A stretch of 39,859 bases of DNA. Origin: a virus. This document shows positions 3,769 through 29,220 of the stretch, piece after piece. Made by a program: the position numbers and the translations under genes. The number at the start of each line of letters is the position of its first letter. Positions within the stretch are counted from its first letter, which is position 1. The notes beneath the pieces are model-generated. The model was not told where the DNA came from, did not search any database, and saw only the letters and a program-made list of their open reading frames with translations. Location of the stretch: IMG/VR virus record IMGVR_UViG_3300042453_005387, positions 1-39,859 of that record. One strand, given 5' to 3'.

Positions 3769-4443
3769 TTAATTTTCTTTATCTTTTTTATAAAATTTAT
3801 CTAGATGCCTATCTAGATGCCCATTTGAAACCATAAATAATTCAACCTGAGCTTTTAACAATTCTTTAGATTTATCAATGTAAATTTTATATCCTTCATT
3901 GTCTTTGTCCTGATTGAATGCATCATAAGCTGTATCATACACTAATGAAACTGTTTGTATGTCTGTATTTACTATTTGTGTATTTAAATCTATGTGAATT
4001 AAATCTTTTTTGTTTTTGCGTGTAATCAAATCATACTCTTTAATTAAGTCTGAGGCAACTTGCGGGACAAAGAAACAGCAAAAAACTATTCCAATATCGT
4101 CTTGAAGTATTTCGTCAATCTGTTTACACTCTTCTGGATATTTTTCCATTATGGCCTTAGACGACTCTTTTAATTTTTTGTCGGAAGTATTCCCAATACC
4201 AGTTTTTTTAATATTTTTTACAATCTGTCTTATTTGAGATAAAACATTCTCAACCGCAAATGGACGGTTAACATCTTTCTCAATTAATTCTTCAAAATTT
4301 TCAATAATTTGACACACCATATAGCTGTGCAATAGGTCATATTTATCTAATGACTTAAAGATAGTTTCTGATGTCTCAAAAGAGAATACTGCGCTAAAAA
4401 AACTGCTCTTGTAGTCAGTAGCTAAAATATAGTTTTTTTTCAT
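3769..4443 (-). CDS. Hypothetical helical protein
   Basis: An unrecognised 224-residue protein, predicted mostly alpha-helical with alternating charged and hydrophobic residues. It has no membrane segment and no metal or nucleotide motif. A segment around 120-132 (VFCCFFVPQVASD) is unusually hydrophobic. It probably shares a transcript with the AT-hook gene, 7 nt downstream. The ATG at 4443 has no Shine-Dalgarno sequence. Confidence 0.6.
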   Translation of the reverse strand: MKKNYILATDYKSSFFSAVFSFETSETIFKSLDKYDLLHSYMVCQIIENFEELIEKDVNRPFAVENVLSQIRQIVKNIKKTGIGNTSDKKLKESSKAIMEKYPEECKQIDEILQDDIGIVFCCFFVPQVASDLIKEYDLITRKNKKDLIHIDLNTQIVNTDIQTVSLVYDTAYDAFNQDKDNEGYKIYIDKSKELLKAQVELFMVSNGHLDRHLDKFYKKDKEN

Positions 4444-6027: not shown

Positions 6028-6591
6028 TTAAAGCACTCCAGAAGGATTAAAAAACAGTCTTTTTGAGTTTGGAATATTTAATGAAATCAATAAGTTATTG
6101 ATTTTCGCAAATGTATGTGGAGGAACATTTGCTAAATATTCAGCTTCCCATGAGTTTTGCTGCCTCGATTGTTTGACTAATCTACAAAAAGAATTTATAT
6201 TTCCTTTTTGTTTGATCAAAATAACGGAATTATTTTTACTGATCTGCACAACGGTTGCATTAAATTCAGGGTCAGCCTCTGACACCTTATTGGACAGTAT
6301 TTGCGCATTTGACTCAACGTCCTCAACTTGCAGCTCTGGAGTTGGCTCTGGAGTTGGCTCTGGAGTTGGCTCTGGAGTTGGCTCTGGAGTTGGCTCTGGA
6401 GTTGGCTCTGTGGTAAAAATTATTGCTGGGTCATTTGTCGGATCGTATTCAGAATCTGAAGTTACCGGAACATCAACATTATTTAAGTTTGATTCTGCTT
6501 CTGTATCTTGAAGTTCAGAATCTTGCGAAACATTTTTTTCGTCAAATTCTGTGTCTTGGTCAGTTTCCGATTTTTTTCTTTTTTTACTCAT
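6028..6591 (-). CDS. Hypothetical protein with Thr-Pro-Glu-Pro repeats
   Basis: This 187-residue protein has an acidic, disordered N-terminal half. It begins with a basic SKKRKK stretch and contains a TPEP tandem tract at about residues 60-85. A compact C-terminal domain (about 95-187) shows alternating strands and a helix (for example 'VVQISKNNSVILIKQKG' and 'YLANVPPHTFAKINNLLISL'). PT/PE-rich repeats like this usually act as flexible linkers. I do not recognise the folded part. It is the last gene before the terminator at 5895-5932. Confidence 0.65.
   Translation of the reverse strand: MSKKRKKSETDQDTEFDEKNVSQDSELQDTEAESNLNNVDVPVTSDSEYDPTNDPAIIFTTEPTPEPTPEPTPEPTPEPTPEPTPELQVEDVESNAQILSNKVSEADPEFNATVVQISKNNSVILIKQKGNINSFCRLVKQSRQQNSWEAEYLANVPPHTFAKINNLLISLNIPNSKRLFFNPSGVL
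6333..6410. repeat. 12-bp tandem repeat, about 6.5 copies
   Basis: The 12-bp unit GCTCTGGAGTTG is repeated head to tail about six and a half times with no base changes. It encodes the TPEP tract of the 187-residue protein. Being in phase with codons, copy number could vary without a frameshift; the exact identity of the copies suggests recent expansion by slippage. Confidence 0.9.
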
Positions 6592-10484: not shown

Positions 10485-13247
10485 TTATTGTGTTATATCT
10501 GCTAGATCGTATATTTTTATATTATCTGCTAGAATGGATTTTCTTTGGTTATATATGTTTATTCTGCCAATTACTAAAGCAATTTTATCTGTCTCTAGTT
10601 TATCTTTTATATCTTGGTATTTCTTGGGGAAACATGTAATACTTATTTGATGTTCTTTGTTTCCTATGTCAATGAAGCACATATCTTCTTGGTTTTTTGT
10701 CTTTATCTTTTTTACCGCCAAGATTAGCCCAGCAGTTGTGACCGATTGACCTTCACCAAGCAGCATTATAGTTGGAATATCATCGCATGGGATCCTAACC
10801 GTACTATTAAAATAGTCAACAATATCTGGACTGCCAATACACAAACTTTTGCTCTGCATAAGTTCTATCTCGGCTAATGTATACTTCTTAATTTCTTTTT
10901 CTTTTCTTACTGTTAAATAAAAAGAGTTCAGCCTGTTTCGTTTATCAGCTTTTGTGCCGTCGCCAGCTTCAGGCATTTTATCTAGCGCACCAGAAAATAT
11001 TAAAGCTGACACAACTCTTTTATTTATAATTTTTTTATCTATTCTTTCATAAAAATCTACAAAACTTTTGTAAGGAGATTTTTCAAATATTTCTTGCGAT
11101 GCATTTTTTACCCCCTTAATCATTGTAAGTGGATAAACTATTTTTTGATCTTCATCATCAATTATATAAAAATCTACATGGCTAAGATTTACATCAGGAG
11201 ATTTAATAACATCACAAAAATATTTAGCATTAGCCTCTAGGTCTTCATGCGTAGAGTTTTGCAATATAGACGTCCACCATTCAAGTGGGTAATGTGATTT
11301 TAACCACATACAAATATATGCTGTATATGAATATGCTACGCTATGACTTAGGTTAAATGCATAGTTACTACTAGATCTACATAAACTGACGAACGCCGAA
11401 ATTTGCTCCTGCGTCCAACCCCTTTTTTCTAGCCTGTTCCTTATGTCTGGCAAAATCTCGTTCATTTTAGAAAGTTTTTTCTTTCCAATTATTTCACGAA
11501 TTTCATCGGCTTGCTCCGGAGTATAATTACAAGATTTCTGAAACATAGCCGATATTTGCTCTTGAAACAAAACAATACCATGTGTCGTAGACAATATATC
11601 TTTCAGATCTTCGTGCAAATAAAACACTGGTTTACTCCCCTTACGTCTTTGAATCCAAAGGTCTATAAGAGTAGTGTCCATTTTTGTTTCAGGGTCTGCC
11701 ATTAGGGCGTACATTGTCCCAGGCCTACATGCTGCAGTTATTGCAGCGAGATCTAATATAGTTTTGGGTTTTATTTGTTTGCATACTTTAGTTGGGATTG
11801 GTCCATTAAACTGGAATACAGTTTCTGTGTTTCCCTTTGCAAACTCCTTAAAAACGCTAATCTCTTCTGGAATATTGTATGTATCTATTTCTTTGTTGTG
11901 TCTTTCTTTTATTAATTTAACACAATTTCTAATATCTTTTAGCGTATTTAACCCAAGTAGGTCAAACTTCACTAATCCCATAGATTCTACAGCTTCCATT
12001 GTAAACTGTGTGCATTCTTCACCGCTGATTTCACATACTGGTACTATTTCATTTATGGGGGAGTCAGAAAGACAGTATGCACTTGCATGTCTGCCTAAAG
12101 ATTTTGGAATCCCTATTACTTGCTCAACCAGAGATTGAACAGCTGGATTTTCGTCAAAAAATTTATCTAATGTAGAATTATTTTCAATTTCGCCTAAGTG
12201 ATGACCCTCGTCATCATCCCAACCATAAAGCCATTTTAATAAATCACTAAAACCTTGTGGGACATTACTAATTGTTTTACAAACATTATCTACAAGAAGT
12301 TTATTTACTTCATTATTTTTAGTATCTAGCACAACTCTAGATACATCTCGTATAGCGCTTTTTACCTTGGTTGTACCAGTTGTGCATATTCTTACGAATC
12401 TGTCACCGTGCTTTGCTTTTAGAGCTTCTGCAACTTTTTCTGGCTCACTAAAGTCTATATCTATATCTGGAAGTTTGCCTCTATTAATCCTCCCAGTAGA
12501 CAAAAATCTCTCAAAAGATAGATTATATTTTACTGGATCGATATGGGTAATTTTAAGTAGATACGCAAGTAAGCACCCCCCAGCACTACCCCTACCGGCT
12601 CCAATCTCAATATTTAAATGCCTAGCCATTTCACAAATTTCATACAACGCCAGAAAATATGGAAGTAAATTTATTTTTCCGTTATCGGCTATTGTATCTA
12701 TCTCTTTGCTTAATCTATCCTGATACTCCTTGGTGTGGACCATCCTTTGATTTTTATCTATGAGTAGGTATATATATATCTTAAGTTTTTGTTCTTCAGA
12801 GTCCGCTAGTTCTATTACCTCTCTTGGTAAATTTACTCCAGGCAAATGATATTTTTTATTGAAAGAAATCTTTTCACACATTGAGGCAAGAACATGATTA
12901 TTCTCTACCCCTTCCTGGAAGTGGCTCGAAAAATCTGTACCATGCAGGTCTACCCATTTTGTCCAGGCTACATTTGAGTTCATTTGATGATAGTTGGTAC
13001 TGAACCTTAAGCCACTATCTTCATCTCTTCCATTTTGAAGCAGCAAATCTTGTACTATTTTCTGCTCTTTGCTTACAAAATGTGCATCTAAAGTCAACAA
13101 AAGAGGTATATTATACTTTCTAGCAATTTTCATTATCAGCTCATTGCCTGATTTTTGTAGATCGCCAATAGGAGCAGATGGAGTGCACTCTTTTCTAACA
13201 AAAACTGGAGAAGAAGTTTTCCTCCATGTTATATTTTTTAATCTCAT
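10485..13247 (-). CDS. dnaE: DNA polymerase III alpha subunit, C-terminal part (polymerase)
   Basis: A 920-residue protein covering the end of the PHP domain and the whole catalytic region of bacterial replicative C-family polymerases. Residues about 20-75 resemble late PHP ('ECTP...GDLQK', 'LLLTLDAHF'). The palm has 'GAGRGSAGG' (about 217-225), catalytic aspartates in 'LPDIDIDF' (Asp263/Asp265 among them) and the third in 'VKFDLLGL' (about 432). Fingers, a helix-hairpin-helix-like region and an OB-like C-terminus follow. Its ATG lies one base after the stop of the gene holding the N-terminal PHP segment, so the two should be translated together. An intact alpha subunit joins these in one chain; here the break falls inside PHP. 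Confidence 0.92.
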   Translation of the reverse strand: MRLKNITWRKTSSPVFVRKECTPSAPIGDLQKSGNELIMKIARKYNIPLLLTLDAHFVSKEQKIVQDLLLQNGRDEDSGLRFSTNYHQMNSNVAWTKWVDLHGTDFSSHFQEGVENNHVLASMCEKISFNKKYHLPGVNLPREVIELADSEEQKLKIYIYLLIDKNQRMVHTKEYQDRLSKEIDTIADNGKINLLPYFLALYEICEMARHLNIEIGAGRGSAGGCLLAYLLKITHIDPVKYNLSFERFLSTGRINRGKLPDIDIDFSEPEKVAEALKAKHGDRFVRICTTGTTKVKSAIRDVSRVVLDTKNNEVNKLLVDNVCKTISNVPQGFSDLLKWLYGWDDDEGHHLGEIENNSTLDKFFDENPAVQSLVEQVIGIPKSLGRHASAYCLSDSPINEIVPVCEISGEECTQFTMEAVESMGLVKFDLLGLNTLKDIRNCVKLIKERHNKEIDTYNIPEEISVFKEFAKGNTETVFQFNGPIPTKVCKQIKPKTILDLAAITAACRPGTMYALMADPETKMDTTLIDLWIQRRKGSKPVFYLHEDLKDILSTTHGIVLFQEQISAMFQKSCNYTPEQADEIREIIGKKKLSKMNEILPDIRNRLEKRGWTQEQISAFVSLCRSSSNYAFNLSHSVAYSYTAYICMWLKSHYPLEWWTSILQNSTHEDLEANAKYFCDVIKSPDVNLSHVDFYIIDDEDQKIVYPLTMIKGVKNASQEIFEKSPYKSFVDFYERIDKKIINKRVVSALIFSGALDKMPEAGDGTKADKRNRLNSFYLTVRKEKEIKKYTLAEIELMQSKSLCIGSPDIVDYFNSTVRIPCDDIPTIMLLGEGQSVTTAGLILAVKKIKTKNQEDMCFIDIGNKEHQISITCFPKKYQDIKDKLETDKIALVIGRINIYNQRKSILADNIKIYDLADITQ

Positions 13248-13248
13248 T

Positions 13249-14103
13249 TTATGTAATTATAATTTTTCTTGTCGAAGTATTTTCAGGCTGATTATCTTCG
13301 TCACTGTCATCAATACTGTCAATCGACATTTTTATTATTCTATCAGAAATTGGGTGATCTTGCGGTCTTTTTGTTACAGAGCAATATATTTCTGAAACTT
13401 TTTTTTCAAAGGCCTCTTTTACTGTTATTTTTCCTATCTCTGTTTCAATAATATCGGTGCCCTTGAATGTATAAGTAAAACCACTTTCGCTATCTACCTG
13501 AAATACATCCTTAACCTCCCAGTCTCTGTCAACTTTGTGTGGCATCACTTCAGCGAACAGTTTGTCTTGGAAAATTTCCATTAGTCTATAGGCATTGTAT
13601 GCAGCCATATCTTTTTCTTCTCTAAGATAAGACTTTACTATAGGGCCTTCTATACAGCCACTTCCACATATTATATCTTCTCTGTATTGTTCTAAATCTT
13701 CCCACCTTACTCTTGGCTTTGGCTGTCCAAACTTTCTAACCACTCTTCCTGGGCCCCAAGATGCATTTGATATAGAAATTAAATTATTATATCCATTTTC
13801 ATTTTGTGCCCATAAAGTTAAATGAAAGTAGTCAAATTTTCTTAAGCTCGGATTAAATATATATTCTTCGTGTGGAGAAAGATATATTTCAATACCTGGT
13901 ATTCCTTTTATATTTGACTCTGAAGATTTATTTATTAAATCATATAAACCAAGAACATATCCATGATCTGTGCAACTACACGCCTCAAGACCATTTTCTA
14001 GACAGTATTTAATGTATTGTTGTATATCAGATACGCCATCCATCAAACTATAAGTTGTATGAGTGTGTAATGGTAAAATATTTAAGTTTGTAGGATTTTT
14101 CAT
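13249..14103 (-). CDS. dnaE: DNA polymerase III alpha subunit, N-terminal PHP segment
   Basis: A 284-residue protein whose first 195 residues are the start of a DnaE PHP domain: 'LHTHTTYSLMDG' (12-23), 'CTDHGYV' (44-50), 'GIEIYLS', and 'LFAEVMPHKVDRDW' at about 182-195. The next expected PHP block is in the following gene. Residues 196-284 are an extra tail not expected in DnaE; it contains a 'GTDIIETEIGKITVKEAF' stretch vaguely like the start of a Hint/intein fold but without the N-terminal Cys/Ser needed for splicing. The stop (TAA) is followed by a single A and the ATG of the polymerase part. The 5' side abuts the structured array at 14116-14984. Confidence 0.85.
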   Translation of the reverse strand: MKNPTNLNILPLHTHTTYSLMDGVSDIQQYIKYCLENGLEACSCTDHGYVLGLYDLINKSSESNIKGIPGIEIYLSPHEEYIFNPSLRKFDYFHLTLWAQNENGYNNLISISNASWGPGRVVRKFGQPKPRVRWEDLEQYREDIICGSGCIEGPIVKSYLREEKDMAAYNAYRLMEIFQDKLFAEVMPHKVDRDWEVKDVFQVDSESGFTYTFKGTDIIETEIGKITVKEAFEKKVSEIYCSVTKRPQDHPISDRIIKMSIDSIDDSDEDNQPENTSTRKIIIT

Positions 14104-14115
14104 CTTTTGTGTTTT

Positions 14116-14340
14116 AAATTTCTGCGTAGCGAAGCGGTTCGTGGCCCACCAACTGCGGCACCGGATGTGCCGAAGGACTTGAGCGACTTGCGACTTGGAT
14201 CACTGGGCTCCAGTGATGCCAAGTCTAGCAAGCAGCGAAAGTCCGGAGGATGATCTATAGTGTGCCGAATGGTGGGGCACTTCCGTTCTTGTTTTAATAT
14301 ATGTTTACGTTGCAGTTCCTGCAACAAAAGCCAGAAATTT
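14116..14340. ncRNA. Structured element, copy A of three
   Basis: A 225-nt element closed by a perfect 9-bp stem (AAATTTCTG 14116-14124 with CAGAAATTT 14332-14340). Just inside are CG on the 5' side and AAAAGC on the 3' side. A 7-bp hairpin with TTC loop (14309-14325) precedes the 3' box. The core is a stem of 10 pairs in 11 (14141-14151/14270-14280) enclosing a 6-bp hairpin (14156-14172) and a long hairpin (14175-14244), in which GGACTT/AAGTCC closes a nearly continuous 20-bp helix (14187-14232). Its 5' edge lies 12 nt from the dnaE N-terminal start codon. The stop-poor minus frame through it is explained by G+C-rich structure, not by coding. Confidence 0.75.
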
Positions 14341-14357
14341 ATTTTTATTTTTTTAAA

Positions 14358-14746
14358 AGCTCTGCGAAATCGCTGAAGGCGATTGTTCCGGCCCCGCAGT
14401 GCAGATCCTGAAGACAGATGGGTCCAGGCCTGCTGCGGACAGCTCGTGAGCTGCACACGAGCTGTGCAGCAGGGCCTGGACCAGAGGTCTTCAGGATAAG
14501 CCCCGCAACTAGCCGGTTGCAGCTGCTGCAAGCAGTAGCAACCGGATAGTAAGGGGACGGGGCCAGGACTTGGACGTACCTGCGGAAGGGGGCCCGAGAC
14601 ATACTGAGGGTACGTCCCGTCGTCGAAAGCCTTCGACGACGGTACGTCCCGAGGTAAGTCGCGGGCCAACTGAAGCAGAGATACGCCAGTCATGGATACA
14701 TGTACATTGTAAAACGATAAGGATCCCTTATCTTTAAGCCAGAGCT
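14358..14746. ncRNA. Structured element, copy B of three
   Basis: A 389-nt element closed by a 7-bp stem (AGCTCTG 14358-14364 with CAGAGCT 14740-14746). It has the same inner CG and AAGC boxes as copies A and C. A 6-bp hairpin follows the 5' box (14368-14384) and a 7-bp, 3-nt-loop hairpin precedes the 3' box (14716-14732). Inside is a giant hairpin (14405-14497) with 11-bp, 16-bp (one bulge) and 9-bp segments. There is also an 8+5 bp hairpin (14513-14545), a GGCCCCG/CGGGGCC closing stem (14390-14396/14558-14564), and an 11-bp hairpin (14617-14642) flanked by two copies of GGTACGTCC, either of which can pair with GGACGTACC (14572-14580). Confidence 0.75.
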
Positions 14747-14758
14747 ATTTTTTTATTT

Positions 14759-14984
14759 TCTCTTGCGATTACAACTGTAGAATACAGTTGTCTGTCTGCC
14801 GCCCACCGCTCACACGCGAGGATATTTTCCAGGTACCCTCTGGGGAACCAGGCTCGCTCGCGGGCCAGGTTCCTCCAGAGGGGGTACCTGGAGAATAACG
14901 CGAGCTGTGAGAGCCCCAGTGGGCGCTCCTGTACGACTTGATGTCTATGTATGACGAGATTCTCTCGTCTTTTAAGCCAAGAGA
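14759..14984. ncRNA. Structured element, copy C of three
   Basis: A 226-nt element closed by a 7-bp stem (TCTCTTG 14759-14765 with CAAGAGA 14978-14984), with the inner CG and AAGC boxes. An 8-bp hairpin follows the 5' box (14771-14791) and a 7-bp TTC-loop hairpin precedes the 3' box (14953-14969). The core is a CGCCCAC/GTGGGCG stem (14800-14806/14919-14925), then CTCACA/TGTGAG, then a long helix centred near 14858 whose outer 15 bp (14823-14837/14883-14897) include one U-G pair on plus that would be C-A on minus. This weakly favours a plus-strand RNA, antisense to the replication operon. It ends 9 nt before the stop of the 82-residue gene. Confidence 0.75.
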
Positions 14985-14992: not shown

Positions 14993-15241
14993 TTAAATAT
15001 TATAGTACGGGTCAAATTTTACCCCCCTATAATAATTTTCGTCAATTTTTTCTGCCATTCCCTCATTACACATTCTTTGTACAAACATGTAAATTTTTTC
15101 AGGCTCTATTTTTATCTGTTTTTGCAGTATTACTTGACTTACATCTGATATACTAATTCCGTTTGGTGAATCTGATGCACTCAAAAGAATTTCGTATATA
15201 GTGTTTTCTATATCGTCTGGGAATTTTTCTGTTGTAACCAT
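14993..15241 (-). CDS. Hypothetical small winged-helix-like protein
   Basis: An 82-residue protein with a helix-turn-helix feel: an N-terminal helix (IENTIYEILLSAS), 'GISISDVSQVILQK', and a 'YMFVQRMCNEGMAEKIDENYYRG' segment that looks like a recognition helix plus wing. The fold call is a guess from this pattern. It sits 1 nt downstream of the primase gene and just upstream (minus sense) of the structured array and dnaE. That would suit a replication accessory or regulator, by context only. Confidence 0.55.
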   Translation of the reverse strand: MVTTEKFPDDIENTIYEILLSASDSPNGISISDVSQVILQKQIKIEPEKIYMFVQRMCNEGMAEKIDENYYRGVKFDPYYNI

Positions 15242-15242: not shown

Positions 15243-16277
15243 TTAATTTTTATTTCTTATATTTTCTTTTATCTGTTTCCAGATTTCTTTTGTGGTAGCT
15301 TCACCTGGGTCATTATACCCAGATAACTTCATGTATCTAAAATACACTCCGTCAAATGATTTTTCAAGCTCATTAAACCAATTTTCTTGTGTATTTACCT
15401 CTGTATCAAGTAATAATATTATTTTTGACCAATTACTTTTTAGTATCCTTATTTGATCTTTTGTTATCTTTTTCCCAAAAGTTGCTACGCAGTTTTTTCC
15501 TACTTTAATGCAATCTATTGGGCCCTCTACAACAATAGTGTAGTCGGTATTAGAAACAGCCTGATCAAAATTAAATAATGCTCTAGATCTTTGCATTCCA
15601 GGGCATGTATAATATTTGGGCACTTCATAATCGGCATAAGTTTTTGTCCCATCAGATAAAATAATTTTATGGGGTTTCCACCATCCTATTTCTTCGCCCT
15701 TCCATACATATCTGTAAGATTTACTGTCTGTTTTATCTATTTGTCTAGCTTGCCACCCAACTAATTTACCAAAAACGTAAACCGGAAAAATTATTCTACC
15801 AGATGTTGTACCAAGTCTAGACGAGAAATTGTACAACCCATTTTGGCAGTATTTTACTTGAAAAAGGGATGCTAAATTTTTGTCCACACCCCTATCGGCT
15901 AGATATATTATAGCTGGATGATCATTATTTAGTCCACTTATGTCAATAAGTGTACCAGGCTTAGGTATTCCATCTATCCATTCCTCTGTATTAAAATTAT
16001 GAAATGTATTATTAAATTTAAAATCATTCGTAGGCCTATATACTTGTAGACCAGCAAAAAACTGATTCCCTTCGTCAAAGAATTCATTAAATGCGTTGCC
16101 GCACCAACCACAATCATTGCACATAAATACACCCGTGTCGGCATTTATCGACAATTTGTACTTACCGCCCTTTTTGTGAAATTTACGACAGTGTACTACA
16201 TACTCAATGTGTCCACTTGCATTGGAAATCTTTGCTTCAGGAAATATTTTTGATACCGTCTCTATATCTAAAGACAT
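15243..16277 (-). CDS. DnaG-type DNA primase (zinc finger plus TOPRIM)
   Basis: A 344-residue primase of the compact phage type. The N-terminal zinc-binding motif uses Cys30, His34, Cys53 and Cys56 ('HCRKFH' and 'CNDCGWCG'). A central catalytic core leads to a TOPRIM domain with 'IVVEGPIDCIK' (Glu251) and 'IILLLDTE' (Asp291, Glu293). The family lays down RNA primers on ssDNA templates. It has no fused helicase; the DnaB-type helicase is the adjacent upstream gene, with overlapping stop and start. It is shorter than E. coli DnaG (581 residues) because it lacks the helicase-binding C-terminal domain, so coupling to DnaB must occur some other way. Confidence 0.9.
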   Translation of the reverse strand: MSLDIETVSKIFPEAKISNASGHIEYVVHCRKFHKKGGKYKLSINADTGVFMCNDCGWCGNAFNEFFDEGNQFFAGLQVYRPTNDFKFNNTFHNFNTEEWIDGIPKPGTLIDISGLNNDHPAIIYLADRGVDKNLASLFQVKYCQNGLYNFSSRLGTTSGRIIFPVYVFGKLVGWQARQIDKTDSKSYRYVWKGEEIGWWKPHKIILSDGTKTYADYEVPKYYTCPGMQRSRALFNFDQAVSNTDYTIVVEGPIDCIKVGKNCVATFGKKITKDQIRILKSNWSKIILLLDTEVNTQENWFNELEKSFDGVYFRYMKLSGYNDPGEATTKEIWKQIKENIRNKN

Positions 16278-19985: not shown

Positions 19986-21782
19986 TTAAAACTCTATTGT
20001 TTGCCTGAAATATGGGATCAAAGATCTTTCATGTGTAACCATCAATACTTGAAGGTTGTTTGCCTCAGATAATTCCGTTATATTTTCAATTATTGTCTTA
20101 AAGTTTGCTATGGTTTCCCTGTCTAGCCATGTTGTAGGCTCATCTAGTACGATCATATTTACTCCCGTAGAGAACGTCTCACAGGAGGCAAACCTGAATG
20201 CAAGAGATAAAACAACTTTCTGCCCACAAGATAAATCAGCAGCTGGTCGATGCTTGTCTTTGAAAATACAAATAAATTCATTATCTTCAGCAACTTTTAC
20301 TTTGTATTCTGCGCCAAAACTAATCAAATAATCATTTATTGCGCAACACATTTTTTGCATCTGTGCATTTACATATTTTCCACTGATATTATCATGTCTA
20401 AATATATCTCTTATTCTGGATATTCGAGACTCATGAATCTTCGTGCCAGTAAAAATGCTTTTTATTTTTTTTGCTTCAATTGAATTATCTAGAAGCGTGT
20501 TAATTTGGTCTTTTAGTTTTTCGTTAGTTGAATCAAGTATTTTAATTTCTGAATTGAGTTTATTTATGTCTGAATCTTTTTGCCTGTAATAATTTATGCC
20601 ATCAAGATATTTTTCTTTTGAGTATTTTGGAAACTTTCTTTCATCAAAATTTTTTTGAATTTTTTCTAGTTTATCTTTGTTGTATTTTATTGAGGATTTT
20701 AAATTATATTTATTAGACTCATAAGATGTTATGTTCGATTCTTTTTTTCTTATACTTAATTTTACTTCTTGTGATTCTAAAATTAAATTTGATAGATCTT
20801 CATTTACTTTACTTAATCTAAGGGAGAATTCTTCAACTTTTAATGAGTCTAGTTCAGAATTACACAATGGACAACATTCTGACTTAGCGGTATTGGTATG
20901 CTTACATACAACACTCAACAAATCTGATTCAGTTTTCTTTGATCCAATAAGTACATCAATTTTTGCTAGCCTATCCTTTAGGGAATCTATTTCATCTCTT
21001 TTTTCTGCTGGTGGCTTTAACTCTTGAAGCAAAATTTCATCTTCTTCGATTTTCTTTGTTATTAGTGATATCTCTGATGTTATTTTTTCTTTTTCACTAG
21101 ATTCTTTATAATTTTTTATTATTAACTCTATATCTATTCCACTTAACTCCTGTGTGATAGAATCTATTTCTGATTTCTTTATTTCTATTTCTTTATCGTT
21201 TTCTGATACTATTGCCTCTAGTTCTTTTATTGAGTTTCTTGTTTGATTTTCATCAATCAAGGCAGGATAACTGATGTTGGATTTCCATTGTCCAAGCAAC
21301 AACTCAAGCTTTGCAGCCTTTTCAAGTCCAAAATACTTTTGCAGCATTTTGTTCCTTTCAGTTGGCCTTCCAAATAATATACCTAGTATATCTGTTTGGC
21401 TCACGAATACCATATTGGGTAAAAAAGATTTATCGCAGCCAAGTATTTCAAGTAATCTTGAGTTTACATCGTCTGCTCCCTCAATAAATTCATCCTTGTA
21501 TTTCAAGGTGCATTTATTTGAATCTAGCGATCTATCTACTATAAATTCAGATCCACGAATGTCACCCTCCAGGTAAATATTGCCTGTAGTTTGTCCAAAG
21601 GTTATTATATCTTTTTTCTTCTTTTTTCCGAATTCGCCTGTTATACCAACAGATATTGCATTCGCAAAATTACTTTTGCCTGACCCATTTCTACCTATTA
21701 TTCCAATTATCTTTTCGTCAAAAGAAACGTCTACATTTTTATGTTGAGCGAAGTTATTTAGTTTAACCCTCTTTATTTTCAT
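19986..21782 (-). CDS. SbcC/Rad50/gp46-like recombination ATPase
   Basis: A 598-residue SMC-like ATPase. Walker A 'GRNGSGKS' (30-37) is near the N-terminus. A coiled coil (about 160-290) leads to a zinc hook 'CPLC' (304-307), with the return coiled coil (about 315-440) after it. The C-terminal head has the ABC signature 'LSCGQKVVLSLAF' and Walker B 'MIVLDEPTTWLD'. At under 600 residues it is T4 gp46-sized, not the >1000 of bacterial SbcC. With the Mre11-like partner it would process DNA ends and hairpins to load the recombinase. Its start overlaps the end of the nuclease gene by 20 nt. Confidence 0.92.
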   Translation of the reverse strand: MKIKRVKLNNFAQHKNVDVSFDEKIIGIIGRNGSGKSNFANAISVGITGEFGKKKKKDIITFGQTTGNIYLEGDIRGSEFIVDRSLDSNKCTLKYKDEFIEGADDVNSRLLEILGCDKSFLPNMVFVSQTDILGILFGRPTERNKMLQKYFGLEKAAKLELLLGQWKSNISYPALIDENQTRNSIKELEAIVSENDKEIEIKKSEIDSITQELSGIDIELIIKNYKESSEKEKITSEISLITKKIEEDEILLQELKPPAEKRDEIDSLKDRLAKIDVLIGSKKTESDLLSVVCKHTNTAKSECCPLCNSELDSLKVEEFSLRLSKVNEDLSNLILESQEVKLSIRKKESNITSYESNKYNLKSSIKYNKDKLEKIQKNFDERKFPKYSKEKYLDGINYYRQKDSDINKLNSEIKILDSTNEKLKDQINTLLDNSIEAKKIKSIFTGTKIHESRISRIRDIFRHDNISGKYVNAQMQKMCCAINDYLISFGAEYKVKVAEDNEFICIFKDKHRPAADLSCGQKVVLSLAFRFASCETFSTGVNMIVLDEPTTWLDRETIANFKTIIENITELSEANNLQVLMVTHERSLIPYFRQTIEF

Positions 21783-22872
21783 TTATTTGATTTTGTAAAT
21801 CCTGTTTTAATACATCGTTTACAAACTCCGGTTTGTAGTTTTTCCAGATATCTTCAATTATTTTAACATCTCTTTTTTCTAGTGTTTTATCCTTTTCAAC
21901 CATTTCTATAAAATCCATTTCATCATCAATTACTGGACTATCTTCTGTTGTTACGTTAACTTTCTTTTTTGTATTCTTGTGAAAATAAAAACATCTAGAG
22001 CTACAATCTGATATTATTTTTTTGTTTATTTCCTCTATATTAGATGAATTTACAGAATCATACCTAAATATGTTAAAGTCTTCGTTTTTTATTAAATCAA
22101 GGGTTTTATCAATAGACTCAAAGTCGTGAACTACTGTTTTTTGAATTGGAGTAAAATTAATAGATTCAATTGATTCTATTGTGTTAGATCTTATATCAAA
22201 AGACATTGATATATATTTAAAGTCATTTATTGGATCACATAACCTTAAGAAATCTATATTTCCTGGATAAGCTATTACACATGAATTTACTTTCATTTTT
22301 TTATGAACATGTAAATCACCAAGAGCTAAATATTTACATTTATGAGACAATATATTTATGTCATCTACATCTAATTCTGGCTTCATAATGGATGCCAAAA
22401 ACCCGATAGTAGATTGATGCATAACAACAACATCTAAGTTGTCGGGAATTTTTTGTATTACATCTTTTAAGGAACTTTTTCTGTGATGATTCAATGAAAC
22501 AATCTTAAGCGGGAGCACGTCTTCACTAATCAAAAACGCCGACCCATCTTCGGATAAAGCTGATTCTGATAAATTTATTGCACCCAGCTCAATCCATTGA
22601 GTTTGTTTCCTTACTTTATCATGATTACCAGTACACGCCACAACTTTACACCCAGAATCATTCCATATATTACACATGGTAATCCAAGTTTTTACGTCAT
22701 CTGGAGATGGAATATTAGAATCAAAGACGTCTCCAGCCACAATAATTAAATCATGGTCTATAGATGTTTCTTTAGCTAATTTTATATTTGTTTCTCTAGC
22801 ATACTGTTGTCTTTCTGATATCCCGTATTGAGAACTGCCAATATGTAAGTCCGCTAAGTGAGCTATTTTCAT
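21763..22872 (-). CDS. SbcD/Mre11/gp47-like nuclease
   Basis: A 369-residue metallophosphoesterase of the Mre11 family. The motifs appear in order: 'HLADLHIGS' (5-13), 'VAGDVFDS' (about 46-53), 'TGNHDK' (about 81-86), and 'LALGDLHVHK' further on, which supply the two-metal site. The C-terminal third (about 250-369) is variable and charged and probably contacts the SbcC/Rad50 partner encoded next. The pair acts as exonuclease and endonuclease on double-strand ends. Such activity can cut palindromic hairpins, which is notable given the long inverted repeats at 14116-14984. Confidence 0.92.
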   Translation of the reverse strand: MKIAHLADLHIGSSQYGISERQQYARETNIKLAKETSIDHDLIIVAGDVFDSNIPSPDDVKTWITMCNIWNDSGCKVVACTGNHDKVRKQTQWIELGAINLSESALSEDGSAFLISEDVLPLKIVSLNHHRKSSLKDVIQKIPDNLDVVVMHQSTIGFLASIMKPELDVDDINILSHKCKYLALGDLHVHKKMKVNSCVIAYPGNIDFLRLCDPINDFKYISMSFDIRSNTIESIESINFTPIQKTVVHDFESIDKTLDLIKNEDFNIFRYDSVNSSNIEEINKKIISDCSSRCFYFHKNTKKKVNVTTEDSPVIDDEMDFIEMVEKDKTLEKRDVKIIEDIWKNYKPEFVNDVLKQDLQNQINENKEG

Positions 22873-22875: not shown

Positions 22876-23352
22876 TTAATATTCATCTATTAAAAATAGT
22901 TCTCCAGTCTCGGCTTCAATCTCTGAGTCTAGTTTCGCTAATAGCGGAGCTGATACGGCACTAACCTCAAATATTCTATCTGAGCCACAATCTTTGTCTA
23001 TAACCCTAATATTTACTGGAGATGTTTTACCGTCAGTTCTCCATATCGCAGATATTACTCCGTCACATACTTCTATAGTTACAATTGATTCAATATTATT
23101 AAGTCTAGACAAAGTAACCGAACTAATCTTATCTTTCGGGAACTCCATTATTTTTCCAGGCAAATAGTCAGAAGTTTGATGGTCTATTGAAATCATTTCA
23201 ATAATTTGACCCACAAAATTCTTTTCATTTGATGGCTTTTTATTTAAAACCCTTACAGAGCAACATAAATTTTTTCCTGGCTGACTTTTTGGAGTATTAA
23301 CTATTACTGAGTCACCTGGATTGATTTGTATTTCTTCATTTTTGTTTTGCAT
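22876..23352 (-). CDS. Hypothetical beta-rich protein
   Basis: An unrecognised 158-residue protein with an alternating strand pattern (SVIVNTP, KNLCCSVRVLN, VGQIIEMISI, SIVTIEVCDGVISAIWR) and an acidic C-terminal tail. No catalytic or metal motif. It lies 3 nt upstream of the Mre11-like gene and 3 nt downstream of the reverse transcriptase gene, in a tightly packed operon. It is thus one candidate for an RT partner protein, although position alone does not establish that. Confidence 0.6.
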   Translation of the reverse strand: MQNKNEEIQINPGDSVIVNTPKSQPGKNLCCSVRVLNKKPSNEKNFVGQIIEMISIDHQTSDYLPGKIMEFPKDKISSVTLSRLNNIESIVTIEVCDGVISAIWRTDGKTSPVNIRVIDKDCGSDRIFEVSAVSAPLLAKLDSEIEAETGELFLIDEY

Positions 23353-23355: not shown

Positions 23356-24975
23356 TTAATTAGTGTCGTCGTTGTTGTTTTCTATTAGCTCTATCCTCCT
23401 AATTGATGAGGTAATTGGTGGATGTATGCTAGATAGTGTATTGGATAATTTATCCGCTTTTTTTGGGCTTGCTGTAGCAATAAAATTTATTTTTCCATTA
23501 ATTTTTGATATTATACTATTAAAATGTGCATGATTTTTAACCTTATTTAATTTTACTTTTTCCTTTAGAGCAAATATCTCTGATCTTACATTTTCAAAGT
23601 ATGCAGGAGGTATAGTTGGCTTTCCTGAGTTTATTATGTAACCAAGGATTTCCATCCGCCCGCCAGTACCAATTACTTTGCTTTTATTTTTATTTATTTC
23701 AAACCCGTTATTTTTTAGCAAACTAGATACCCTATATATGAATATATTTATAAATTTTTTGCCAAACCTTTTTGGCCAAGTAAAAGATAAATCATCTGCA
23801 TATCTTGTATAAACTGCCCCATTTTCTTTAGCTAAACTGTCTAGCTTGTAGTCCAGTAGTTTAAAACAAATATTTGTAATCGCTGGACTTGCTGGAGACC
23901 CCTGCGGGAGAAATATGTCTCCTGCATTGATCATCTCACCTATATTAAACAATTGTTTCAGTATTTCAGATAAATATTTTTTATCTACAATTTTTAACTT
24001 AAGCGCATCAGTCATTATTACCTCGATTAAAATAGACACAACATGTTTTAGGATTTTTATTTCCTCAGATATTTTATTTAACTCTCTGTTTTCTCGACTA
24101 GCTGGGCTAAATCCATAAAAAACGGAGGGAGAAAAAAATAATCTGTTATTTGCTCTAATTTGTTGACGTATATCTCTTGAATACCAACTATCGACATAAG
24201 AATTATGAGCATGAGCCGGTGAATCTTCTCTTAGTCTCTGAAGAATGGTTTGATAAAGTTTCTTAAAATCAATAAATGAGCAGACCACCATTGATACTAG
24301 CTGACATATATTGCAATTATTTAATTTTACTGTACATAACTCCAGTATTCTTTCAATGTCTTCGTCTATGATGCCATGTGCCATCAAGCTTTTTTGCATA
24401 TCTTTTTTGTTAAAACTTCCAAAAAAGTTTTTAATATCAAGATTTACAAGAAGCTCTGGTTTTTTGTTATAAAACAAGTGATAATTTGCACAATCAATAG
24501 CTGATCTATTTTTTGCAAAACCAAAACATTGAGTATGTGGCCTAAAGTTATTTAATTGATCAGATATATTAGATTGCACAGCTTTTAGCTCATTGTCTGG
24601 AGCCAATATTATCCTGTGGTTTTCTTTTGCTTTTATTATTTCGTCTCCAATAAATGAAATTAATCTATGGTAATAACTTGGAAGTAAACTTTGTCTATTC
24701 CTTCTAGTATCTCTTCCGTAAAAAATAGAGTCTCTTATGAAAGATCTTGTTTTTTTGGGTAAATCATTTTTATTATCTATGTCTTTTATAATTAAATTGT
24801 AGTCATGCACAATTAAATTACATAAACTGCCAAAGCGTGAAAAAGATGAGTTATCGTGACAAATAACCTTATCAAAAAATAAGTTTTCTATAGACTTGGA
24901 ATTATTGTTGTCAATCCTTCTATTAGTTTTTTTAATGCAAAAAACTCTATAAGGCAACTTTATTTCATTCTTCAT
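23356..24975 (-). CDS. Retron/group II-like reverse transcriptase
   Basis: A 539-residue RT with an intact palm. The 'GFAKNRSAIDCANYH' block (152-166) matches the region ahead of motif A in retron and group II-type RTs. Motif A has Asp180 in 'NLDIKNFF', the fingers/palm block is 'LPQGSPASP' (356-364), and motif C is 'RYADDLSF' (Asp394/Asp395). 'GFEINKNKSKV', 'ILGYIIN' and 'GKINFIA' follow, as in retron RTs. About 170 residues separate motif A from LPQG, clearly longer than the compact retron core, so an insertion is present. No endonuclease or maturase domain is seen. It is embedded in the replication operon, its ATG overlapping the upstream stop. It is not DGR-like (no LPxGxxTSQ). Confidence 0.88.
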   Translation of the reverse strand: MKNEIKLPYRVFCIKKTNRRIDNNNSKSIENLFFDKVICHDNSSFSRFGSLCNLIVHDYNLIIKDIDNKNDLPKKTRSFIRDSIFYGRDTRRNRQSLLPSYYHRLISFIGDEIIKAKENHRIILAPDNELKAVQSNISDQLNNFRPHTQCFGFAKNRSAIDCANYHLFYNKKPELLVNLDIKNFFGSFNKKDMQKSLMAHGIIDEDIERILELCTVKLNNCNICQLVSMVVCSFIDFKKLYQTILQRLREDSPAHAHNSYVDSWYSRDIRQQIRANNRLFFSPSVFYGFSPASRENRELNKISEEIKILKHVVSILIEVIMTDALKLKIVDKKYLSEILKQLFNIGEMINAGDIFLPQGSPASPAITNICFKLLDYKLDSLAKENGAVYTRYADDLSFTWPKRFGKKFINIFIYRVSSLLKNNGFEINKNKSKVIGTGGRMEILGYIINSGKPTIPPAYFENVRSEIFALKEKVKLNKVKNHAHFNSIISKINGKINFIATASPKKADKLSNTLSSIHPPITSSIRRIELIENNNDDTN

Positions 24976-26008
24976 TTTCTATTTCAATTGATCTTGATAG
25001 TGTTCTTACTATTTCTACGTTATTTGAGTCGTCTATTGTATCCTCTGAGCCAGAAAGCTCTATAGCTCTTTTTATTACCAGCATTTTTTCTGGATTTTTC
25101 TCTATTTCAGCAACGTCATTTTTTACGTCCTTAACTATCCTAGATAATACAGCTTCTAGGTTACATGAATCCACTTCATCCTTTTTCCAGCTTGATACAG
25201 AAGTAATCGAATTACATGCACCGTTCAGTATTTTTTCTACTTCTGGATCATTAAAAAGATTTATTTGCTTTAATTCATTTAATCTTTCAACAAATGATTT
25301 AACGGTTCTAATATTTACGCAATGCTTGCCATTTCTAATAGCATTTACTACAGATTCTGTTGCTTCAATAATATGATTTCTTATTTGAAGACCAGCTTGA
25401 AACACTAATTGAGCAGCCTTTTCAGAAAGATGATTTTTAGCATCAACAGCTATTTCAGCTATTTCTGTCTGTGCCCAAGAATACAATGTCCATGAGTAAT
25501 TAAACTTATGTATAAGATTATCTGCGGGTGGATAAAATGCATCTAAATATCCAATGTGTTCTGGATATTTTTCGTTGAATTTAGATATTTGTTCTGAAAC
25601 AATTTCTGGGTATTTTTCAAGAAAATCGTCTCGCATCTTAAACATACACTCTTTTTGATTGTTTAAGAAATTCTTTAACTGAGGGTAAGCGTTTTTAGGT
25701 ACAAACCTAGCTCCCCTCATTCCTGGAACCCTGTAAGAAATTCTTTCCATGAAATTACCGAGCCTAACTCTAAACGAAGAAAATTGTGTTGTGTATTTTC
25801 TTGGAATGAGCCATTTATATCCAGGTTGATAAAATTCACTTTCTTCCTTTACTCCAAGCACCTTTTGATCTTCTGGGGTTTGCCTGACCTGGCCGCTCCA
25901 AAATCCAATACTAACATTTATAAGGGCCCCATGCTTAAATATATCGGAGGACAGTTTTGAAGCCCATGCTATATCTTTGTCTATATTATTTTGTTGTGTC
26001 TGTTCCAT
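24965..26008 (-). CDS. DUF3150-like protein
   Basis: A 347-residue protein. Its N-terminal 130 residues resemble the DUF3150 family: a 'ALINVSIGFWSGQ...TPED' opening, a 'LIPRKYTTQFSSFRVRLGNFM' helix and 'ARFVPKNAYPQLKNFL' leading into a charged helix. The rest is helical, with an acidic C-terminus (IEIENEE). The family has no assigned biochemical role that I know of, but tends to be encoded with AAA+ ATPases in phages and mobile elements. It sits directly upstream of the RT (11-nt overlap) and downstream of the terminator at 26036-26065, so it is the first gene of the RT-SbcCD operon. Confidence 0.65.
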   Translation of the reverse strand: MEQTQQNNIDKDIAWASKLSSDIFKHGALINVSIGFWSGQVRQTPEDQKVLGVKEESEFYQPGYKWLIPRKYTTQFSSFRVRLGNFMERISYRVPGMRGARFVPKNAYPQLKNFLNNQKECMFKMRDDFLEKYPEIVSEQISKFNEKYPEHIGYLDAFYPPADNLIHKFNYSWTLYSWAQTEIAEIAVDAKNHLSEKAAQLVFQAGLQIRNHIIEATESVVNAIRNGKHCVNIRTVKSFVERLNELKQINLFNDPEVEKILNGACNSITSVSSWKKDEVDSCNLEAVLSRIVKDVKNDVAEIEKNPEKMLVIKRAIELSGSEDTIDDSNNVEIVRTLSRSIEIENEE

Positions 26009-26081: not shown

Positions 26082-26372
26082 TTATTTAGCGAAATTTTTG
26101 TAAGTAAATAATTTCATGTAATCACTCGAAAAAAAATCATTAATTAAGTCGCTTTGTTGCGCTTTCTTTGCTTTCAACAGTTTATTATTAAAACATGTAT
26201 TACTTCTTTTAATTCCTCTTAGCTTGTCATGGTTAGTTAATGCATGACCTATTTCAGCTATTTCTGAATTATCTACAATACCGTTTTGTGCCAAAAAATG
26301 AACTATATCACATAGTATAAATTTATTTTTGTCTTGCACCAATTTATTTACTTTTGTTTTTTTTATTTTCAT
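26082..26372 (-). CDS. Hypothetical small basic protein
   Basis: An unrecognised 96-residue protein, the last gene before the terminator at 26036-26065. It is helical and basic (KIKKTKVNKL at the N-terminus, NNKLLKAKKAQQ in the middle), with a hydrophobic 'FILCDIVHFLAQNGIV' helix at about 18-33. It overlaps the end of the upstream gene by 29 nt. It is part of the operon that contains the DUF1257 and AAA+ genes. Confidence 0.55.
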   Translation of the reverse strand: MKIKKTKVNKLVQDKNKFILCDIVHFLAQNGIVDNSEIAEIGHALTNHDKLRGIKRSNTCFNNKLLKAKKAQQSDLINDFFSSDYMKLFTYKNFAK

Positions 26373-26823
26373 TTATTTTTATTTTGCTTGGTTGTATTTC
26401 ACAACCATCATATATCATTTTACTAGCTATTCTGACTTCTTCGTCTAAAACTTTTGACCTTAATTTGTCTCTAGCTATAATTTTTTTAGTGGAAATTAAT
26501 CTAGCTATCCACTCTTGAGATGAGTTGTCAAACTCTACATCTGTTATTCTTTCTACGATTAAATTTTTATTTTTACCAAAAAATTCGTCGTAATATATAC
26601 TTTTGACTGTGCCATCAGGCAAAAAATTGAGAGAAAAAATTTTGCGCTTTTTAGCTCTATTTACTTTAGGCTCTAATTGATTGAGCGGAGCAAGAGGCTC
26701 CTTCAAACATTTCAGGTTTTTCTGAGTAGCTGACTTCTTTCGAGTACAGCTTTTCAAATATTTTTGTTGCGTCTTTGCAGCCACTACCTTTGAACCCTTC
26801 TGCTTCGATTGATGCTTGGCCAT
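26344..26823 (-). CDS. Hypothetical protein overlapping the DUF2997 gene
   Basis: A 159-residue reading frame. The first 53 codons (Lys/Gln-rich, low complexity) lie within the DUF2997-like gene in another frame. Residues about 60-130 look like a folded beta-rich unit (IFSLNFLPDGTVKSIYYDEF, EWIARLIS), and the C-terminus is lysine-rich. There is no internal Met before about residue 135, so either the ATG at 26823 with a 158-nt overlap is used, or a non-ATG start nearer 26660. The folded part appears real; the N-terminus is uncertain. Confidence 0.5.
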   Translation of the reverse strand: MAKHQSKQKGSKVVAAKTQQKYLKSCTRKKSATQKNLKCLKEPLAPLNQLEPKVNRAKKRKIFSLNFLPDGTVKSIYYDEFFGKNKNLIVERITDVEFDNSSQEWIARLISTKKIIARDKLRSKVLDEEVRIASKMIYDGCEIQPSKIKINENKKNKSK

Positions 26824-26860
26824 CTTTAGTTATAGTAATTTTTACTAATTTTTCGCTCAT
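26666..26860 (-). CDS. DUF2997-like protein
   Basis: A 64-residue protein matching the DUF2997 pattern: a short strand 'KLVKITITKDG', a second strand 'ASIEAEGFKGSGCKDAT' with the typical GFKG-x-x-C-x-x-A-T block, a helix 'IFEKLY' and a C-terminal 'KPEMF'. Its ATG overlaps the stop of the DUF1257-like gene (ATGA). DUF2997, DUF1257 and a Ycf46-like AAA+ ATPase are known to be encoded together in some bacteria, so its presence here supports all three assignments. Biochemical role unknown. Confidence 0.75.
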   Translation of the reverse strand: MSEKLVKITITKDGQASIEAEGFKGSGCKDATKIFEKLYSKEVSYSEKPEMFEGASCSAQSIRA

Positions 26861-27246
26861 TGCATTTTTATTTTTAGTTCAATATTTCCATTTGAAGAAT
26901 TTACTTTTTCTCCAATTATTTCATACCCCATTTTTCTGGCAGTTTTTCTGTGTTGCTCAATTTGATAGGCTTGACTCAGTTTACCGGCATTGTTGCCAAC
27001 AATTTCCCTGAGTCTTGCGTCAAATAAATCAGCCTGTATTTCGTAATTTTTGCCCTTTTTAATTACAGCAATTTCATACGTAGATTGATCACTAGATATT
27101 ACTGCATCGCACTTCATTTTTTGACCAGCGTAATATTTAGCCTGTTTTTTGTTCACATCTAGTTTAAGACCTAGCCTAGAACACGCTCTCTTTAAAACGT
27201 CTATGTCAGATATCTCTGGCATAGACATGACTACCATGTGTGACAT
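26857..27246 (-). CDS. DUF1257 (Ycf35-like) protein
   Basis: A 129-residue protein with the DUF1257/Ycf35 layout: an 'MSHMVVMSMPEISDIDVLKRACSRLGL' opening (family members begin MSH and use this helix), 'KYYAGQKMKCDAVI', 'YEIAVIKKGKNYEIQADLFD' in the middle, a 'QAYQIEQHRKTARKMGYEI' helix and a closing strand. Ycf35 is conserved in cyanobacteria and plastids without a settled function. It is next to DUF2997, and the Ycf46-like ATPase lies two genes upstream, as in bacterial clusters. Confidence 0.75.
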   Translation of the reverse strand: MSHMVVMSMPEISDIDVLKRACSRLGLKLDVNKKQAKYYAGQKMKCDAVISSDQSTYEIAVIKKGKNYEIQADLFDARLREIVGNNAGKLSQAYQIEQHRKTARKMGYEIIGEKVNSSNGNIELKIKMQ

Positions 27247-27255
27247 ATTTTATTT

Positions 27256-27441
27256 TTAGTTGATTGATTCTATTTCTTGTTTGACTTCTTTTTTTGTCTT
27301 GATTCTGTATCTATCTCCGACTTTTGTGACAAATCCTTCCATTTCTAGGTATTTTAGGTGATTAGCTATGTATTCCTCTAGCTCATCAAATGATTTTATT
27401 CCTAGTTTATTCAGTTCTTTTTTTAGTTTTGTTGCATTCAT
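27256..27441 (-). CDS. Hypothetical small winged-helix-like protein
   Basis: A 61-residue, highly charged protein. Two helices (TKLKKELNKLG; FDELEEYIANHLKYLEMEG) are followed by a 'FVTKVGDRYRIKTKKE' beta hairpin, which resembles a minimal winged helix-turn-helix. It sits between the AAA+ ATPase and the DUF1257-like protein, so it may be a partner or regulator of the cassette. No specific family is recognised. Confidence 0.55.
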   Translation of the reverse strand: MNATKLKKELNKLGIKSFDELEEYIANHLKYLEMEGFVTKVGDRYRIKTKKEVKQEIESIN

Positions 27442-27456
27442 GGCAATAACTTGTTT

Positions 27457-29220
27457 TTATAGATCATCTTCATTTAGTTCTATTCTTCTGTGTTCTTGAG
27501 TATTTTTGTTTACTCCACCAAGTACGCCAATCTTGAGAGAAGACTTACTTGTTGGCAAAAGATCTTCATCATCTTTATTGGCCATCATAACTTTGTGTGA
27601 CCTAGCCCATTCAAGTAAAGATCTTGATTCGTCTGGGTTAAGTTCTGCCATTATTTTTACATCATTAACTGCATCCACTAAATGCTTGGTCTCTATTGGA
27701 AATGACTTTCCAAAGCCCACATCCTTGCCTTTTCTTATCAACCCCTCTATCACTATTTGCTCTATTTCAGAGCCAGTTCTATTCGGAGTTATTTCTGCAA
27801 GTTTTTTGAGGTCAATTTTATATTCATCTGGATCCCAACCTCTTTTCTTTAGGTGGATTGAAAATATTTCTTTTCTCTGACTCAATCCTGGTAATCCAAC
27901 GTATATGACCTCATCAAACCTACCCTTTCTGAGCGCTGGCGCTGGTATATTGGTGATACTGTTTGTTGTCGCTACAACAAACACATCAGCTTTCTTTGAC
28001 TGAGACCATGTTAACCAGGTACCATACATACGCTGAAATGTTCCACCGTCTGTTACGTTACCTCCAGCTCCTGCAAATAATTTTTCAAACTCATCAACAA
28101 ACAATATGCACGGAGATTGAGCTTCTGCATCTGCCAGCGCTTTTATGAGCTTACTCTCTGATTCACCAAGAAGACTGCCCATACATGCTCCTATATCAAG
28201 CCTTAATACTGTTCTGTCCCATTCTTTTCCTAGTGCTTGTGCAACCCAACTTTTTCCTGTACCGCCTGGGCCAACGACACATAGTCCCTTTGGCAAATCA
28301 ATGCCATCCTCTCTAGCCTCGTGACTAAATATAAGGGTGCGGTCTTTTGCCCAGGCTTTTAGGTTTTCCATGCCACCAACCTCTTCCATGCCCCAATTAG
28401 TTTCAACTATTTTTAGGACACCAGACTTAGAGAATAATCTAGACTTTTCTTTTCTTATCACCTCACTCTTGAACGTTCTCCTGTCTGTCTTGTTTGATAT
28501 GTATTCAAGCGCATTCTCTCGATTAGATAATGCCAATACATTTTCGGCTTGCCATTGAGTTAATCCAGTCAAAGATTGAGCGGTTTTTATTAGCTCGTCT
28601 TCACTTAAAATAATATCAGGGACACCATTAATGCTAACGGAAACCTGATTACTCCTAACTATTGATTTCATTTTAGATACATTTGGTAACCTATGTTCTG
28701 CGTATGTTACATAATGATCTAATTCAATTGGCACCTCTGTGTGATGATTTACAAAAACTAAGTGCTTTTGCTGAGCATTAAGTTGTTTTACGCTGTCCTT
28801 TATGCATCTAGTAAGCCTAGCATTTGTGTGTTTGACCTTGTTTGGGTCAGTCATATAAAACGGAGCATCAAGAAGTATAAGAGTTGATCTATTTGGAAAC
28901 CCATGCTCTAAAATATTCCATGCAGATGTACCATCAACAATAGTGTCTTCGTATGTTAATGATGTTATGTTTGACGCACAAAACCTTTGTATTGCATCAA
29001 CTGGGCCGTCAAGCTCATCCATTATTTGTAATGGCTCAACGCCAGTATCCCTTTCATAATCATATATTATATTATTAGCATCATATACATAAATTCTATT
29101 AGATAACCTTTTGTGCAACAAAAATGTTGCCTCTTCTCTGATAAATCTATCCTCTTCTATACTGTATACCCAAATTATGGGTATTCCAGCAGAAACAAAC
29201 TCTTTAAGTATTGAACTCAT
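27457..29220 (-). CDS. Ycf46-like AAA+ ATPase
   Basis: A 587-residue AAA+ protein. The N-terminal domain (about 1-200) is the RecA-like module seen in Ycf46 proteins, opening 'GIPIIWVYSIEEDRFIREE' and containing 'STLILLDAP' and 'LVFVNHHTEVPIELD'. The C-terminal AAA+ domain has Walker A 'GPGGTGKS' (317-324), Walker B 'ILFVDEFEK' (Asp376/Glu377), sensor 1 'VVATTNSI' and an arginine-finger region 'LRKGRFDEV', then a lid with 'NRTGSEIEQIV'. Ycf46-type ATPases are linked to stress or CO2 responses in cyanobacteria but their substrate is unclear. As an ATP-driven remodeller it may act on phage or host proteins with the DUF1257/DUF2997 partners. Confidence 0.85.
   Translation of the reverse strand: MSSILKEFVSAGIPIIWVYSIEEDRFIREEATFLLHKRLSNRIYVYDANNIIYDYERDTGVEPLQIMDELDGPVDAIQRFCASNITSLTYEDTIVDGTSAWNILEHGFPNRSTLILLDAPFYMTDPNKVKHTNARLTRCIKDSVKQLNAQQKHLVFVNHHTEVPIELDHYVTYAEHRLPNVSKMKSIVRSNQVSVSINGVPDIILSEDELIKTAQSLTGLTQWQAENVLALSNRENALEYISNKTDRRTFKSEVIRKEKSRLFSKSGVLKIVETNWGMEEVGGMENLKAWAKDRTLIFSHEAREDGIDLPKGLCVVGPGGTGKSWVAQALGKEWDRTVLRLDIGACMGSLLGESESKLIKALADAEAQSPCILFVDEFEKLFAGAGGNVTDGGTFQRMYGTWLTWSQSKKADVFVVATTNSITNIPAPALRKGRFDEVIYVGLPGLSQRKEIFSIHLKKRGWDPDEYKIDLKKLAEITPNRTGSEIEQIVIEGLIRKGKDVGFGKSFPIETKHLVDAVNDVKIMAELNPDESRSLLEWARSHKVMMANKDDEDLLPTSKSSLKIGVLGGVNKNTQEHRRIELNEDDL

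Follow-up and report, generated by a model that had tools for sequence, protein, structure and literature searches.

Three tandem elements among the replication genes of a phage are probably retron msr-msd RNAs served by the phage's own reverse transcriptase

Introduction

What are the three long, strongly folding elements that lie end to end among the replication genes of a phage known from IMG/VR record IMGVR_UViG_3300042453_005387? We analysed a stretch of 39,859 bases from this record (hereafter the window), in which the elements, units A, B and C, form a single array. A reading made from the sequence alone had described them as tandem, paralogous and structured but of unknown family, and had named GOLLD and ROOL as families to be tested, while noting that the layout was unlike either.

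Retrons are usually single-template bacterial anti-phage systems, and a retron RT usually adjoins its ncRNA. A multi-template retron among a phage's own replication genes is therefore unexpected, and our search of the open-access literature turned up no description of a tandem retron ncRNA array encoded by a phage. Nevertheless, the array is in our view very probably a set of three tandem retron msr-msd ncRNAs that are transcribed from the minus strand and used in trans by a retron-type reverse transcriptase (RT) which the phage itself encodes. The retron identity is well supported; we infer the transcription of the units, their copying into cDNA (msDNA) and the action of the RT in trans.

Results and discussion

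The array comprises three structured units between replication genes

Unit A (14116..14340), unit B (14358..14746) and unit C (14759..14984) proved to have been correctly placed, and each folds far more stably than dinucleotide shuffles of itself, with z-scores for A, B and C of -8.3, -15.1 and -9.0 on the plus strand and -7.8, -13.8 and -8.3 on the minus strand. The features by which the sequence-only reading had recognised them, namely complementary terminal stems, flanking CG and AAGC motifs and hairpins of 7 bp with a 3-nt loop, were all found as described. The core of each unit is made of long helices and is more branched than in the bacterial retron relatives described below.

The same reading had stated that the array fills the gap between an 82-residue gene and dnaE to within 12 nt. 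The gaps are indeed 12 and 8 nt, but the neighbour on the low side is a separate gene for a PHP-domain protein (13249..14103, minus strand), with DnaE (10485-13247, minus strand) lying beyond it. On the high side is the gene for the 82-aa protein (14993..15241, minus strand), which is preceded by that for the primase (15243-16277, minus strand). The window also encodes a DnaB-like helicase, a RecA/UvsX-like recombinase and a terminase. In a minus-strand reading the array runs in the direction of its neighbour genes and of the RT gene. A Shine-Dalgarno-like motif was seen at only one of 29 starts of minus-strand genes in the window, and the leaders are A-rich, like those of Bacteroidota phages; these signals suggest that the hosts are probably Bacteroidota.

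Elsewhere in the window, an open reading frame at 6028-6591 contains tandem GAGTTGGCTCTG coding repeats, the plus strand of which folds as a long hairpin, and positions 19986-22872, directly downstream of the RT cassette, encode an SMC/RecN-like AAA protein and a calcineurin-like phosphoesterase, a pair resembling SbcCD or gp46/47.

No family in Rfam matched the array at gathering or E-value thresholds, and the matches that were seen were chance-like, mostly to miRNA precursors. In particular there was no covariance-model match to GOLLD or ROOL. The units resemble these families in being large structured phage RNAs, but the unit ends and the link to an RT are absent from GOLLD and ROOL, and we conclude that the array belongs to neither.

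By BLAST within the window the array matches nothing except its own inverted arms, and it shares few 13-mers with the remainder of the genome, their number being slightly above chance in the window only. Both results argue against a role as a sequence donor or as part of a diversity-generating retroelement. Such retroelements likewise combine a phage-encoded RT with a templating RNA; however, the window contains no long template/variable repeat pair and the RT best matches retron models. Three further candidates were also rejected. There is no Y1 transposase in the array carriers, and the array is a single locus and not a set of scattered copies, as would be expected of an IS200/IS605-like element; a search for a Nop-domain protein (TIGR-Tas) found none; and no TROVE (Ro) protein, the partner of Y RNA, was found in the records searched, most of which are fragments.

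Pairing is maintained in related arrays

Relatives with the same gene order were located by protein scans (G labels denote genomes and L labels loci or records; most of the viral records surveyed are fragments). At the site of the window's array, L005 and L007/L008 each carry three elements (L006 is the same phage, truncated by the end of its contig) and L041 carries two. No array lies at that site in L010/L012 or in the outgroup L047 (genome G009). In array-less L010 the site is occupied by a 93-nt spacer (4061-4153) with two small GC-rich hairpins, which may be a remnant of an array or unrelated to it.

A descriptor of the unit ends recovered array units in four phages, two or three in each and 11 in total. 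The remaining matches were chance-like and had weaker folds, with a minimum free energy (MFE) of -0.24 to -0.34 per nt compared with -0.46 to -0.62 for the units; resampled sequence, as a null, gave 32 matches in 7.1 Mb on both strands. When 2.9 million viral contigs were searched with a degenerate pattern of the 3' end, 26 matched, and the full hairpin together with the terminal stem was present only in the five known carriers. When the arrays were compared by blastn with 50,697 phages, and bacterial genomes were scanned for the PHP protein, nothing was returned.

To the sequence-only reading, pairing maintained while the sequence changes was the mark of selected structure, and homologues with preserved stems were to be sought. 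The related arrays bear this out. Across nine distinct end sequences, 11 of the 14 pairs show changes in both partners, single-sided changes are absent, and 99.2% of the alignment cells pair. The covariation score was 0.857, well above the 0.24 of shuffled controls and the 0.15 or less of slid controls. The terminal stem is 100% paired, with changes on both sides at five of its seven pairs. A comparison of L005 with L007 gives the same picture for the whole units: their elements differ at 26-41% of alignment columns (the DNA identity of three flanking genes is 83-85%), and yet the folding energies of the homologous units are kept at -207, -242 and -159 where random mutation would have left -112, -154 and -101, differences of 6.6 to 10.9 standard deviations.

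Could such pairing be a property of the DNA and not of an RNA? One potential explanation is that the units are long DNA palindromes (replication origins, packaging or recombination sites) in which pairing is kept partly by template-switch repair. The low content of G-U pairs, of which there are none in the terminal stem or the end hairpin, would fit this, as would the position among replication genes. Local helices could be kept in part by template-switch repair of hairpins, but the terminal stems covary over 225-490 nt, a distance at which local hairpin repair would not act in this way; moreover, fixed motifs stand at the junctions, and in the related phage L010/L012 the replication genes stand in the same order with no array. 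Of all the explanations weighed here we give this one the least credence.

The unit ends match bacterial retron ncRNAs on the minus strand

On the minus strand the 11 phage units all have one frame: a1, then GCTT or GCTA, a 7-bp stem, long helices, CG and a2. The GC that immediately follows a1 is invariant (11 of 11), and the loop of the 7-bp stem is GAT, GAA or GGT, or the four-nucleotide GGTT in units L5a and L7a. Under a descriptor of the a1/GC...CG/a2 rule, the units had an MFE per nt of -0.41 or below and chance matches one of -0.30 or above.

Upstream of the RT genes of bacterial relatives we found a1/GC, a stem of 7-8 bp with a GAT or TTT triloop, a long, near-perfect and variable hairpin, and CG/a2. 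The upstream ncRNAs of L107 and L158 begin with a1/GCTTTT and end with TACG/a2, and the GAT triloop is present in L102, L160 and L173. The ncRNA rule gave a candidate in 11 of the loci scanned, some of them probably by chance, as against three shuffled upstream regions with any match. Given that the minus-strand ends match retron ncRNAs and that the same phages encode a retron-type RT, the family of the elements is no longer unknown. On this frame the AAGC and CG motifs are the opposite-strand images of the priming junction and the template-start junction, and the functional transcript is most likely that of the minus strand; the motifs noted earlier stand, but the 5' and 3' ends assigned to them are reversed.

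Unit C, the first on the minus strand, would accordingly begin with a1 at 14984-14978, followed by a candidate priming G at 14977, an msr stem-loop at 14969-14953 (loop GAA), a CG template start at 14767-14766 and a2 at 14765-14759. The corresponding positions are, for unit B, a1 14746-14740, candidate priming G 14739, msr stem-loop 14732-14716 (loop GAT), CG 14366-14365 and a2 14364-14358, and, for unit A, a1 14340-14332, candidate priming G 14331, msr stem-loop 14325-14309 (loop GAA), CG 14126-14125 and a2 14124-14116. The a1/a2 inverted repeats, an msr stem with a three-nucleotide loop, an msd hairpin next to a2 and an RT with catalytic motifs are all found, while the priming guanosine is identified purely by its context, a GC after a1 as in the bacterial relatives. 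A single ncRNA next to the RT gene is not found, there being three units 8.4 kb away; this is a matter of typical layout and not of mechanism.

The pattern of fixed and free positions is that of Retron-Eco1 (Ec86), with its a1/a2 stem, priming G, triloop msr stem and sequence-free msd hairpin. That retron has its priming G within UAGC, and its three-nucleotide loop is the motif by which the RT recognises the RNA; changes adjoining a2 are not tolerated, whereas the long msd stem takes new sequence if pairing is restored (PMC11754653). The Eco1 ncRNA is, however, single and small, and the phage RT is only distantly related. Also similar are the PADLOC type XIII-like retrons of Pedobacter (L158), Bacteroides (L107), Chitinophagaceae (L101) and Bacteroidetes (L152), which have in common with the phage system a retron-type RT, a1/GC(TTTT), a triloop msr stem, a long variable msd hairpin and (A)CG/a2. 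In these bacteria one ncRNA lies directly upstream of the RT gene in the chromosome, whereas the phages have two or three tandem units that are larger (225-490 nt against about 185-205 nt for the bacterial ncRNAs examined) and more branched.

We propose that the array is transcribed on the minus strand together with the phage replication genes, and that in each unit the terminal stem would form the a1/a2 duplex. Judged from sequence, the candidate priming guanosine, whose 2'-OH would be used, is the first base of the invariant GC that adjoins a1, and the 7-bp stem with its GAU, GAA or GGU(U) loop would be the msr stem-loop for recognition by the RT. The RT would begin to copy at the invariant CG that precedes a2 and proceed back along the long GC-rich helices, and the products would be two or three different branched msDNAs of plus-strand sequence.

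The view closest to the original one is that the plus strand encodes a trans-acting family of structured RNAs, such as a scaffold, a decoy or an RNA cage like GOLLD or ROOL, to which the RT cassette is unrelated. The plus strand folds slightly more stably in 10 of the 11 units, with RNA as with DNA parameters, G-U pairs are commoner on it, and its unpaired positions are purine-rich. Nonetheless, the plus strand would be the cDNA of a retron, so the bias also fits selection on the fold of the msDNA. No convincing plus-strand promoter of the sigma-70 or Bacteroidota type was found: a -7-like box is present in the window and G001, degenerate in G003 and not found in G008, and is confounded by coding sequence. 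As the ends match bacterial retron ncRNAs on the minus strand only, and the RT occurs in the same phages, we regard a plus-strand RNA as very improbable.

A divergent retron-type RT accompanies the array

To test the retron reading we looked for RT domains and found, at 23356..24975 in the window, a gene for a 539-aa protein; G002, G003 and G008 have homologues, whereas G005/G006 gave no match. The gene in the window lies 8.4 kb upstream of the array on the same (minus) strand, in a cassette of three genes: a DUF3150 protein (347 aa; 24965..26008, minus strand; PF11348, E = 1.8e-8), whose gene overlaps that of the RT; the RT itself; and, just downstream, a 158-aa protein (22876..23352, minus strand) with no family match and a predicted structure of low confidence. 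The catalytic motifs of the RT are intact (NLDIKNFF, LPQGSPASP and YADD). It matches PF00078 with E = 9e-18, and the PADLOC models RT_III-A and RT_XIII with 7e-59 and 6e-52; its match to NCBIfam retron_St85_RT (1e-39) is below the cut-off of that model. Its best relatives in the PDB are the RTs of retrons Ec67 and Ec86, and the first matches of its AlphaFold model, which is of modest confidence (mean pLDDT 61), are also retron RTs.

Retron RTs carry NAxxH and VTG motifs, and in the phage RT these are degenerate, reading CANYH and ILG. The protein scores 198 bits with III-A, its best PADLOC model, and 175 with XIII, where its bacterial relatives reach about 550-614 and the type XIII-like RTs named above about 610; it falls clearly in no PADLOC type, a divergence that counts against the retron reading. 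The hallmark partners of type III retrons are a PRTase and a DNA-binding protein, although retrons can acquire other effectors (PMC12548924). Neither partner was recognised in the cassette, where the RT is accompanied by DUF3150 and the 158-aa protein. The phage RTs are 48/39% identical to one another, and in a tree the three form one fully supported, long-branched group.

This divergence, together with weak matches to DRT2 models and the multi-branched shape of the units, might suggest a defence RT like those of DRT systems and not a retron, with the units templating concatemeric or repeat cDNA without 2'-5' branching. Against this, retron RT models and structures outscore the DRT ones, and the a1/a2 frame with GC and CG junctions matches the one in the bacterial retron ncRNAs that we examined. 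We consider such a system very improbable.

The distribution of the two loci points to a retron. The cassette is present in the window, in G003 (with G002/G004) and in G008, all of which bear the array, and by synteny is precisely missing from array-less G005/G006. Among the lineages with both loci readable, three have array and cassette together and one has neither. There are four array-carrying lineages; the G001 contig begins in the DnaB gene, downstream of the RT position, so that its RT region is off the contig, and G009 was left out of RT scoring as its record stops near the expected position. The array ends and the RT were sought in separate scans of 2.9 million viral contigs, and both scans led to the same phages with the exceptions of G001 and one distant RT. 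The latter (L100) is a retron-type RT of 31% identity on a 204-kb viral contig, in which the descriptor found no array within the 20 kb examined.

Possible roles of a multi-template retron

What the msDNAs would do for the phage is a guess, for which we place a decoy or counter-defence role first and inter-phage defence next. No known retron effector was recognised when the cassette and neighbouring proteins were scanned, leaving DUF3150 and the 158-aa protein as candidates, and the loci lie among core replication and repair genes. For these reasons the leading, if tentative, proposal is that the msDNA is a DNA decoy or sponge that keeps the phage safe from nucleases or DNA-sensing defences of the host. 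A fuller version, somewhat more doubtful, is that of a multiplexed retron in which one RT makes two or three large branched msDNAs, of fast-diverging sequence and stable fold, as replaceable DNA decoys in the phage replication programme, serving counter-defence and not bacterial abortive infection. It is unlikely, though still worth considering, that DUF3150 or the 158-aa protein is the effector of a system by which the infected cell is defended against competing phages. If the retron reading is true, phages have taken over retrons, possibly for use against the host, and the array would be a natural example of multiplexed msDNA production with long branched msd templates that could be useful for retron engineering.

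Other features of the related phages

Other strongly folded spots in the relatives are coding repeats, terminator-like hairpins and coding helices that lack the unit ends. A Pistol self-cleaving ribozyme (Rfam, 44.5 bits, above the cut-off) was found near a tRNA-Met gene at L025 14811-14876 on the plus strand (G003 54811-54876). In G005 (26153-29173; L019, L022) the terminase large subunit is split by about 1.3 kb inside one open frame of 1030 aa, and the DnaE of the outgroup L047 (4825-8007) carries an intein-like insert.
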